DNA of 43,503 nt from positions 2,501 to 46,003 of the forward strand of contig NZ_KB890604.1 in the NCBI RefSeq assembly GCF_000373145.1, written 5' to 3'. The position numbers were made by a program, and so were the translations under genes. This DNA is from Thermus oshimai DSM 12092 (GTDB taxonomy: Bacteria; Deinococcota; Deinococci; Deinococcales; Thermaceae). Below, piece by piece: positions 29,635 through 33,183 of this stretch; within the stretch, counting starts at the first letter, position 1, and each line of letters begins with the position of its first letter. The notes under the pieces were generated by a model. The model had not been told where the DNA came from. It saw only the letters and a list, made by a program, of their open reading frames with translations, and searched no databases.

Positions 29635-30060
29635 ATGAGGACGTTCCTCCTGCTCTTGGCCTTCCTGGGCCTGGCCCTGGCCCAAAGCGAGGGGGCCAAG
29701 GTCTACTCCGCCAACTGCCAAAGCTGCCACCAGGTGAACGGGCAGGGCCTGCCCGGGGCCTTCCCGCCCCTTACCCACCTGGACAAGGTGGTCCAGGCCC
29801 AGGGGGGGCGGGCGTACCTCATCCGGGTGGTGCTCTACGGCCTCCAGGGCCCCCTCACCGTGGAGGGCAAGACCTTCAACGGGGTCATGCCCCCCTTCCG
29901 CCAGCTCAAGGACCCGGAGGTGGCGGCGGTCTTGAACCACATCCTCACCGCCTTCGCCAAGTCCAAGGCCAAGCCCTTCACCCCGGAGGAGGTGAAGGCC
30001 CAGCGGGCCAAGGCCTACGCCCCGCAGGAGGTGCTCAAGTCCCGTCCCCCGGTCAAGTAG
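29635..30060 (+). CDS. c-type cytochrome, c-552-like
   Basis: A 141-residue secreted monoheme cytochrome. The signal peptide MRTFLLLLAFLGLALA is followed by QSEGAKVYSANC; heme is bound by C28-Q-S-C31-H32 and Met85 in NGVMPPF is the likely sixth ligand. NGQGLPGAFPPL, VVLYGLQGPLTVEG and QLKDPEVAAVLNHI closely parallel T. thermophilus cytochrome c-552, so it should carry electrons to a terminal oxidase. The start is 6 bases after TAAGAT (29623-29628), so the mRNA is probably leaderless. A 10-pair hairpin follows the gene. Confidence 0.92.
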   Translation: MRTFLLLLAFLGLALAQSEGAKVYSANCQSCHQVNGQGLPGAFPPLTHLDKVVQAQGGRAYLIRVVLYGLQGPLTVEGKTFNGVMPPFRQLKDPEVAAVLNHILTAFAKSKAKPFTPEEVKAQRAKAYAPQEVLKSRPPVK

Positions 30061-30080
30061 ACCGGTGTACTCCCTCCCTA

Positions 30081-30110
30081 CCGGGGCCCCTTAGGGGCCC
30101 CGGGCCCTTT
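30081..30110 (+). terminator. Hairpin after cytochrome gene
   Basis: CCGGGGCCCC (30081-30090) pairs with 30094-30103 around TTA, followed by GCCCTTT. It is a likely terminator for the cytochrome transcript, although the T-run is only three bases. The trp promoter -35 candidate TTTACC overlaps its tail. Confidence 0.6.
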
Positions 30111-30137
30111 ACCTGGGAGGGGGGGTTGGGGTAAGGT
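30108..30137 (+). promoter_or_regulatory. Promoter of trp operon
   Basis: TTTACC (30108-30113), an 18-base spacer and TAAGGT (30132-30137) are followed by 6 bases and the ATG of the Trp leader peptide. The predicted transcript starts at or very near that ATG. The -35 match is only moderate. Confidence 0.55.
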
Positions 30138-30143
30138 AAGCCC

Positions 30144-30179
30144 ATGGCTCCCGTCTTCGCCTGGTGGTGGCCCGGCTAG
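30144..30179 (+). CDS. trpL: trp leader peptide (Trp-Trp-Trp)
   Basis: An 11-codon frame, MAPVFAWWWPG then TAG. Codons 7-9 are three consecutive TGG. Trp is rare in these proteins, so such a run directly before trpE marks a classical attenuation leader. The stop codon (30177-30179) is 2 bases before the first of three CCCCGGGG segments that build the alternative hairpins. The frame is probably translated from a leaderless 5' end, because no Shine-Dalgarno precedes it and a -10 does. Confidence 0.85.
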   Translation: MAPVFAWWWPG

Positions 30180-30180
30180 G

Positions 30181-30232
30181 CCCCGGGGCGGAGGCGGGCG
30201 TTCCCCCGGGGTGCACCCCGGGGGGCTTTTTT
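30181..30232 (+). promoter_or_regulatory. trp transcription attenuator
   Basis: Three copies of the self-complementary CCCCGGGG occur at 30181-30188, 30204-30211 and 30216-30223. Copies 2 and 3 form the terminator stem (30203-30211 with 30216-30224, loop TGCA), followed by GCTTTTTT. Copies 1 and 2 can pair instead as an antiterminator, and CCCGG at 30171-30175 can hold copy 1. A ribosome stalled on the Trp codons frees copy 1, while one at the stop codon covers it, which gives read-through only when tryptophan is scarce. Confidence 0.8.
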
Positions 30233-30242
30233 AGGGGGTGGC

Positions 30243-31628
30243 ATGGCGATCAAACCCTTTCGCAGGACCTTTCTGGCGGACCTGGAGACCCCCGTCACCG
30301 CCTACCTGAAGCTTGCGGAGAAGGCCCCGGTGAGCTTCCTCCTGGAGTCTGTGGAAAGGGGGCGGCAAAGCCGCTTCTCCATCGTGGGGGTGGGGGCCAG
30401 GCGCACCTTCCGGCTTAAGGACGGGGTCTTCACCGTAAACGGGAAGCCCCTGCCCGCGGAAGACCCCTTGCGGGCCCTCTACCAGGCGGTGCACGCCCCC
30501 CTGGAGCGCCCCCCTGACCTTCCCCCCTTCTTTGGCGGGGTGGTGGGGTACGCGGCCTACGACCTCATCCGCTACTACGAGCGCCTGCCCGCCCTCAAGC
30601 CCGACGACCTGGGCCTGCCCGACCTCCTCTTCGTGGAGCCCGAGGTGGTGGCGGTGTTTGATCACCTAAAAAGCCTCCTCCACCTCATCGCCCCCGGGGA
30701 GGACGGGGAGGAGGCGGAAGAGCGGCTCGCCTGGGCCGAGGCCCGGCTCAAGGGGCCCCTCCCTGGGGTTCCGGGGATGCGGCCTGGGGGGCGGGCGGAG
30801 TTTAGGGCGGACCTCACCCGGGAGGCCTACCTCGAGGCCGTGGAAAAGGCCCTCCGCTACATCTACGCCGGGGACATCTTCCAGGTGGTCCTCTCCCTGA
30901 GGCTTTCCTCCCCCCTCACCGTCCACCCCTTCGCCCTCTACCGCGCCCTTAGGAGCGTGAACCCGAGCCCCTACATGGGCTATTTGGACCTGGGGGAGGT
31001 GGTCCTGGTCTCCGCCAGCCCCGAAAGCCTCCTCCGCTCCGACGGCCGCCGGGTGGTCACCCGGCCCATCGCGGGGACGAGGCCCAGGGGGAAGGACGAG
31101 GAGGAGGACCAAAGGCTTGCGGAGGAGCTCCTACGGGACGAAAAGGAGCGGGCGGAGCACCTGATGCTCCTGGACCTTTCCCGAAACGACATCGGCCGGG
31201 TGGCCGCCTTCGGCACGGTGCGGGTCCTGGAGCCCCTGCACGTGGAGTACTACTCCCACGTGATGCACCTGGTGTCCACGGTGGAGGGGGTGTTGGCCGA
31301 GGGGAAGACCCCCCTGGACGCCCTTTCCAGCGTCCTCCCCATGGGCACCGTCTCCGGGGCCCCCAAGATCCGGGCCATGGAGATCATCGAGGAGCTGGAG
31401 CCCCACCGCCGGGGGCCCTACGGGGGAAGCTTCGGCTATCTGGCCTACGACGGGGTCATGGACATGGCCTTGACCTTGCGCACCTTCGTGATCGCCAAGG
31501 GGTGGATGCACGTGCAGGCCGGGGCGGGCATCGTGGCGGACTCCGTGCCCGAGAGGGAGTACCAGGAGTGCCTGAACAAGGCGCGGGCCCTCCTGAGAGC
31601 GGTGGAGCTTGCGGAGGAGGGGCTATGA
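30243..31628 (+). CDS. trpE: Anthranilate synthase component I
   Basis: Makes anthranilate from chorismate, with TrpG supplying ammonia. The 461-residue protein has the tryptophan feedback site FLLESVERG (LLES, residues 33-36). The chorismate-binding core includes [41 protein letters not shown] and [21 protein letters not shown]. The ATG has AGGGGGTG just before it and lies 11 bases after the attenuator T-run. It is the first structural gene of trpE-trpG-trpD; its stop overlaps trpG (ATGA). Confidence 0.97.
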
Positions 31629-32206
31629 GGGTCTTGGTGGTGGACAACTACGACAGCTTCACCTACAACCTGGTCCAGTACCTGGGGGAGCTTGGGGCGG
31701 AGCCCATCGTGTGGCGGAACGACCGCTTTGAGCTGGAGGCGGTGGAGGCCTTGAACCCGGACCGGATCCTCATCAGCCCCGGGCCCTGCACCCCCCTCGA
31801 GGCCGGGCTTTCCGTCCCCCTCATAAAGCGCTACGCCCCCCGATACCCCATCCTGGGGGTCTGCCTGGGCCACCAGGCCATCGGGGCGGCCTTCGGGGCG
31901 GAGGTGGTGCCCGCGCCCATCGTCATGCACGGCAAGGTGAGCCCCATCCACCACGACGGCACCGGGGTCTTCCGGGGTCTGGAAAGCCCCTTCCCCGCCA
32001 CCCGCTACCACTCCCTGGTGGTGCGAAACCTCCCCGAGGAGCTTTTGGTGAACGCCTGGGTGGAGGAGGCCGGGGGCAGGACGGTGATGGGCCTCCGCCA
32101 CCGCGCCTACCCGGTGCACGGGGTGCAGTTCCACCCGGAAAGCTACCTCACGGAGGCGGGTAAACTCATCCTCAAGAACTTCCTGGAGGACCCATGGAGG
32201 CCATAA
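31625..32206 (+). CDS. trpG: Anthranilate synthase component II (glutamine amidotransferase)
   Basis: Class I glutamine amidotransferase of 193 residues that feeds ammonia to TrpE. Catalytic Cys80 is in [10 protein letters not shown], with His170 and Glu172 in [18 protein letters not shown] is the oxyanion-site loop. The start ATG overlaps the trpE stop by 4 bases, and the 3' end overlaps trpD by 13 bases. It could also serve p-aminobenzoate synthesis, as in bacteria with one shared amidotransferase; no pabB is present here. Confidence 0.96.
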
Positions 32207-33183
32207 GGAAAGCGCTTTTGGGGGAGGTGCTCACGGAGGAGGAGGCCTACGGGCTCATGGGGGCCCTCATGCGGGGGGAGGTCTCCCCGGTGCGGGCCGC
32301 GGGGGTGCTCACCGCCTTGGCCCTAAGGGGGGAGCGCCCCCACGAGATCGCGGCCATGGCCCGGGCCATGCGCGAGGCGGCAAGGCCCCTTAGGGTGGAA
32401 AGGAGGCCCCTTCTGGACATCGTGGGCACGGGGGGGGACCATAAGGGCCTGGTCAACCTCTCCACCCTGGGGGCCCTGGTGGCCGCGGCGGGGGGGGTGG
32501 CGGTGGCCAAGCACGGGAACCGGGCGGCGAGCTCCCAGGCGGGCTCCGCGGACCTCCTGGAGGCCCTGGGGGTGGACCTCGAGGCCCCCCCGGAGCGGGT
32601 GGGGGAGGCCATCGAGGCCCTGGGCTTCGGCTTCCTCTTCGCCCGGGCCTTCCACCCCGCCATGCGCCACGTGGCCCCGGTGCGCTCCGAACTCGGCATC
32701 CGCACGGTCTTCAACCTCCTGGGCCCCCTCACCAACCCCGCGGGGGCGGACCGGTACGTGCTCGGGGTCTATAGCCCCCATTGGCTTTTCCCCATGGCCG
32801 AGGCCCTGGAACGGCTTGGGGCGAAAGGGCTTGTGGTCCACGGGGAGGGGGCGGACGAGCTCGTTTTGGGAGAGAACCGGGTGGTGGAGGTGGGGGGAAG
32901 GACCTACGCCCTCACCCCCGAGGGGGTGGGCCTCAGGCGGGCCCCCCTGGAGGCCCTGAAGGGGGGCGGCCCCGGGGCGAACGCCGAGCTGGCCCGCCGG
33001 ATCCTGAAAGGGGAAGAGAGGGGCCCCTTGCGGGACGCGGTGGCCCTGGCCGCGGGGGCGGGGTTCTACGCCGCGGGGCGGGTGGGAGGCCTGGAGGAGG
33101 GGGTTAGGCTCGCCCTCGAGGTCCTGGCCTCGGGGGAGGCCTACCTCCTCCTGGAAGGCTACGTGCGCTTCCTGAAGGGCTAA
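32194..33183 (+). CDS. trpD: Anthranilate phosphoribosyltransferase
   Basis: Joins anthranilate and PRPP to make phosphoribosylanthranilate. The 329-residue protein contains [17 protein letters not shown] (PRPP site GTGGD), [25 protein letters not shown] and [17 protein letters not shown]. The ATG at 32194 lies inside the last codons of trpG, so translation is coupled. The operon stops here; trpC, trpF, trpB and trpA are not in the window. Confidence 0.96.

Follow-up and report, generated by a model that had tools for sequence, protein, structure and literature searches.

The window, by which we mean the whole 43,503-nucleotide stretch of Thermus oshimai DSM 12092 DNA that was analysed, comes from a genome assembly that totals 2.26 Mb over 24 contigs, and our interest here lies in positions 30108-30242, where a promoter-like stretch, an ATG, an 11-codon frame, three CCCCGGGG blocks and a T-run follow one another, with trpE-trpG-trpD directly 3' (Table 1). 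These are the cognate biosynthetic genes, and they stand immediately behind the putative attenuator, as is expected for trp attenuators. The original prediction had described a frame with three adjacent TGG codons beginning 6 bases past TAAGGT, and every sequence feature that it named was found again where it had been placed, the six bases that separate TAAGGT from the ATG at 30144 being AAGCCC. The DNA that separates the trp promoter from the upstream cytochrome c-like gene also contains a perfect palindrome, CCGGGGCCCC-TTA-GGGGCCCCGG (30081-30103), which has no T-run and is perhaps the terminator of that gene.

Table 1. The trp leader region of the window and the genes behind it
Feature	Position	Strand	Remarks
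-35-like hexamer TTTACC	30108-30113	+	18-nt spacer to the -10; relatives have CTAGAC/CTGGAC at the equivalent position
-10 hexamer TAAGGT	30132-30137	+	TANNNT type
Leader ORF trpL, MAPVFAWWWPG-stop	30144-30179	+	ATG at or adjoining the inferred transcript 5' end; open in all relatives; without Shine-Dalgarno (SD) site
Trp control codons TGG TGG TGG	30162-30170	+	2 or 3 in nearly all relatives
Protector helix strand 1, CCCGTCTTCGCC	30150-30161	+	Within the leader ORF; folding at 37 and 70 °C; compensatory changes
Protector helix strand 2, GGCGGAGGCGGG	30187-30198	+	Overlaps the end of block 1; folding, compensatory changes
Block 1, CCCCGGGG	30181-30188	+	Antiterminator 5' strand; 1 nt past the stop codon
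Block 2, CCCCGGGG	30204-30211	+	Common to antiterminator and terminator
Block 3, CCCCGGGG	30216-30223	+	Sequence reading
Terminator hairpin CCCCCGGGG-TGCA-CCCCGGGGG	30203-30224	+	-22.3 kcal/mol at 37 °C, -12.6 at 70 °C
Terminator tail GCTTTTTT	30225-30232	+	T-run directly after the hairpin
trpE SD, AGGGGGT	30233-30239	+	Anti-SD pairing -9.9 kcal/mol
trpE, anthranilate synthase component I	30243-31628	+	TIGR00564 above cut-off, E 3.7e-159
trpG, anthranilate synthase component II	31625-32206	+	TIGR00566 above cut-off; ATG overlaps the trpE stop; start inferred
trpD, anthranilate phosphoribosyltransferase	32194-33183	+	TIGR01245 above cut-off

Conservation of the leader and of its promoter

Regions upstream of trpE were gathered across the phylum, with 27 Thermus genomes among the sources, and gave 25 distinct Thermus leaders and 68 distinct leaders overall; the labels 'Trueperaceae-like' and 'Meiothermus group' were assigned by relatedness and by named sequence matches, and the genus Deinococcus itself was not recognised among the genomes taken in. 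Leaving aside the Trueperaceae-like family (f5), all 66 Deinococcota genomes that we examined have a leader with Trp codons before trpE, and at least two of these codons are adjacent in 64 of the 66. The remaining two are naturally occurring variants that have only one Trp codon (MNLTSLRPWPG-stop in L021 and ...GKGWPS-stop in L178), and they should be useful for asking how many control codons are needed. Within Thermus the peptide nearly always ends in W-W-P-G-stop, codons 2-7 vary and the frame stays open; in the alignment, the single indel inside the Thermus leader ORF (L015) measures 3 nt, whereas indels 3' of the ORF are not necessarily multiples of three. Among 59 trpE loci from other phyla, those returned by the same kind of sequence search, there was no credible Trp leader and there were only a few chance Trp-containing frames.

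The promoter is similarly constrained. TANNNT ends exactly 6 nt before the ATG in 25 of the 25 distinct Thermus leaders, mostly as TATCCT or TATTCT and as a rule preceded by CTAGAC or CTGGAC at a distance of 18 nt, and this spacing backs the earlier suggestion that the ATG is probably the first transcribed codon. Over all 68 distinct leaders, TANNNT stands 33 times at a gap of 6 and 12 times at a gap of 7, with 9 occurrences in total at gaps 10-29; families f4 and f5 have gaps of 4-10 nt, and many Meiothermus-group genomes have 8-9 nt together with CAGACT, so that their 5' UTR may measure 2-3 nt instead of zero. Leaderless genes are predicted to make up about 40% of genes in Deinococcus-Thermus and are marked by a TANNNT some 12 bp ahead of the start (PMC3160421), and the -10 motifs that mark such genes in this phylum are also covered in PMC12340547. 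A leaderless start of the predicted trpL transcript is, on this spacing, probable. The window's own promoter, TTTACC/TAAGGT, is unlike that of nearly all other Thermus examined, and its upstream neighbour also differs; a sigma-70 promoter scan placed this trp promoter below threshold and so did not detect it.

General searches returned rather little. An Rfam scan of the window and 17 sources, relatives included, gave no relevant match, and the Trp_leader family (RF00513) matched neither the window at the gathering threshold nor, up to E=10, L003 and relatives. Our covariance model of the element (R1) made several weak secondary matches elsewhere in the same genome, and of the six that we read in context only the one before leuC (L231, see below) looked meaningful. 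No Trp-rich leader was found upstream of trpB or trpS. In several Thermus genomes (L193-L201) a TACCCT, a 6-nt gap and an ATG open a short frame, MR(V/A)RTPFA(Y/F)K..., about 170 nt upstream of trpB, which is not Trp-rich and was not found in the window's genome.

Helices of the leader RNA

Folding of the full leader at 37 °C and at 70 °C gives a protector helix together with the terminator. The helices that the original prediction had named for its attenuator are supported, but it had overlooked the protector, in which CCCGTCTTCGCC pairs with GGCGGAGGCGGG over 12 bp, G-U wobbles included. At equilibrium the terminator is more stable than the antiterminator, and this holds also when block 1 is left unpaired. 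When both strands of 29900-30400 were scanned for terminators, the hairpin at 30202-30225 with its T-run was the sole candidate, where 0.3 would be expected.

Comparison between species points in the same direction. Compensatory changes affect 7 of the 14 pairs of the protector helix, and in protector and terminator together (alignment A1) 24 cells are changed on both sides against 12.8 in shuffles, none of 500 shuffles reaching as high, while every slid register of the alignment scores below the true one. As the control does not remove relatedness, we take these two-sided changes to be supportive rather than conclusive. Within Thermus 5 of the 8 antiterminator pairs are invariant and covariation is of no help there, and for that reason we turned to a matching test across families, in which the antiterminator strand fits the terminator arm of its own taxon so well that only 4 of 362,880 taxon permutations are equally good. 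Examples of such block pairs are CCCCAGGG/CCCCTGGG in L121, ACCTGGG/CCCAGGT in L176 and CTCTGGG/CCCAGAG in L179, and the relatives in other families have the same architecture with less G+C-rich blocks. In most taxa no more than 0-2 nt separate the stop codon from the beginning of the antiterminator strand, which is where a ribosome completing the peptide would mask it. Folding and cross-family matching thus support the claim of a mutually exclusive antiterminator and terminator built from the three CCCCGGGG blocks and GCTTTTTT.

Proposed mechanism and competing explanations

We think it highly probable that this element is a ribosome-mediated transcription attenuator of trpEGD, the leader peptide of which is translated from a leaderless (5'-AUG) transcript. 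The sequence has the features of the class, namely a short ORF whose adjacent Trp codons lie close to the stop, a terminator before the first gene, an exclusive antiterminator and a protector helix. RNA polymerase would start at or beside the A of the leader ATG, and the 5'-terminal AUG would load a ribosome. As judged by toeprint distances, a ribosome usually extends some 15 nt beyond the first base of the codon in its P site. Were charged tRNA-Trp scarce, the ribosome would stall while codon 7, 8 or 9 occupies its A site, its leading edge at about 30174-30180, leaving block 1 free to pair with block 2, so that the polymerase reads on. Were Trp plentiful, the ribosome would reach the stop codon and cover the RNA to about 30189, so that block 1 is masked, blocks 2 and 3 pair and transcription terminates. 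This geometry supports the original prediction, which had considered the distances suited to ribosome stalling: block 1 would be free during a stall at codons 7-9 and masked by a ribosome at the stop.

In an untranslated leader, the terminator would form too, as the protector helix would keep the last bases of block 1 paired, which means that expression would need a ribosome loaded on the leaderless end. Given that equilibrium favours the terminator, antitermination would have to rest on kinetics, with an antiterminator that forms first and persists while block 3 is made. On this reading, nature offers here a small system whose termination control depends on how quickly a nascent leaderless RNA can take up a ribosome, in a genus whose polymerase and ribosome serve as structural workhorses. 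Its phylum-level conservation and compensatory changes make it, in our view, well suited to studies of how transcription and translation are coupled on leaderless RNA.

A classical attenuator with a short 5' UTR would be built in much the same way, except that transcription would begin some bases upstream and the leader would be initiated on a weak SD, the AAGGT within TAAGGT. In the window alone TAAGGT pairs with the anti-SD at -6.3 kcal/mol, and this and the 8-9 nt gap of many Meiothermus-group genomes could be read in its favour. The ambiguity of TAAGGT between a -10 and a weak SD is nevertheless resolved by the relatives, because TATCCT or TATTCT at the equivalent position is not SD-like and in most pairs at -2.4 kcal/mol; that value is also the Thermus median at the leader ATG, as against -9.9 kcal/mol at trpE, with the leader weaker in 25 of 25, which leaves the window as the weakest case of a leader ORF without an SD site. 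The invariant 6-nt spacing in Thermus also speaks against an SD-led start, and overall we find it improbable.

We give slightly less credence again to the idea that the hairpins serve to control how the trpE mRNA is translated or how stable it is, and not transcription termination. T-runs are interrupted in several Thermus relatives (TTTCCC, TTCGC), so that the automatic terminator finder missed several of these hairpins and the alignment was used in its place; moreover, the trpE SD lies immediately 3' of the hairpin, and the Trueperaceae-like genomes have no terminator that we could find. Against this, the window has GCTTTTTT behind a stem of 9-10 bp, T-runs recur in families f2, f3 and f4 and in Meiothermus, and the SD is outside the hairpin. 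It is true as well that CCCCGGGG palindromes arise easily in G+C-rich genomes, and the weak model matches elsewhere in the genome might encourage one to see here an ordinary constitutive terminator beside a chance Trp-rich frame. That notion is scarcely credible, however, given that leader, frame, Trp codons and architecture are kept throughout the 66 genomes, compensatory changes included, and that trpE of other phyla has no credible leader. Attenuation from a leaderless message remains the reading that we prefer.

Known attenuators and sibling leaders

The trp element is no new kind of regulator, and belongs to a known kind, the classical trp attenuator. The E. coli trp attenuator has a leader ORF with adjacent Trp codons and the same protector, antiterminator and terminator logic; the difference is that the E. 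coli leader (RF00513) has a 5' UTR and an SD, whereas the Thermus leader lacks an SD and has no Rfam match. Closer to home, Sato et al. are said to have noted in 1988 an attenuator-like structure before trpE (trpEG) of T. thermophilus HB8, merely as such, and this structure is presumably the ortholog of the T. oshimai element. To our knowledge, neither a leaderless start nor phylum-wide conservation formed part of that account. Among the papers that our search returned, none describes the Thermus trp attenuator, and PMC12340547, which deals with -10 motifs, is silent on attenuation and leader peptides.

The leaderless version is not unprecedented either, and the view of the original prediction that it is unusual has to be given up in light of the share of leaderless genes in the phylum (PMC3160421) and of leaderless trp leaders in other bacteria. 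In Streptomyces lividans, trpL1 lies directly before trpE, encodes MFAHSTRNWWWTAHPAAH with three adjacent Trp, is reported to be leaderless and has a rho-independent terminator (PMC8079986); this resembles the element proposed for Thermus, but the phylum is another, and the peptide is longer and does not end in WWPG-stop. The trpL transcript of Sinorhizobium meliloti also begins with the ATG of the leader ORF, and attenuation regulates trpE(G) (PMC7298713), although there trpE(G) is fused and the 14-aa peTrpL peptide and the rnTrpL sRNA have functions in trans. Actinobacterial trp attenuators have UGG codons in twos or threes, G+C-rich terminators that end in poly-U and conserved complementary triples (PMC1262725), and are like Thermus in Trp codons and terminator type, with a core triple of gGCC-rGCy-GGCC as against the CCCCGGGG triple. 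What our analysis adds is the phylum-wide conservation, the fixed spacing in Thermus, the sibling leaders of ilvB and leuC, and a Trueperaceae-like variant in which no terminator was found.

Of these siblings, the ilvB leader (L211; same genome, G000:C19, minus strand) reads TTGACA, 17 nt, TATCCT, 10 nt, ATG, and encodes MRSGLALSLALVLIVGPAGGRA followed by a stop codon, its ATG lying 134 nt upstream of the ilvB match. A CCCCCCGG...CCGGGGGG hairpin and a short T-run follow, the arrangement is kept in 11 of 11 Thermus genomes, and this near-leaderless leader is likely to be an attenuator. The second (L231 near 1488-1600; G000:C19:48405-48501), seen in the window's own genome only, has TACCCT, 8 nt and an ATG, then MRRAVILVLDRAGPV with its stop codon and a hairpin, CCCCCGGG...CCCGGGGGTTTT, and is likely to be a leader before a leuC-like gene, a gene identified from its N-terminus only.

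The Trueperaceae-like family (L158-L174) has a different trp leader, likewise putatively leaderless. This leader has TATACT, about 6 nt and an ATG, encodes M...SWTG(V/A)LGRWR and lies some 100-200 nt upstream of trpE, with no terminator found between the two; third codon positions vary while CGA-TGG-CG is constant, and CGATGGCG is invariant. Tentatively, and with rather more doubt than belief, we would propose that amino-acid attenuation in Deinococcota (for trp in every family that we saw, and in Thermus for ilvB and leuC too) as a rule works from leaderless or near-leaderless messages, with the decision hinging on initiation at a 5'-terminal AUG, and that the Trueperaceae-like trp version would have lost its terminator while keeping SWTG-V/A-LGRWR and CGATGGCG, possibly for another read-out. 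Several genomes of this family that are without the WTG part retain CGATGGCG.
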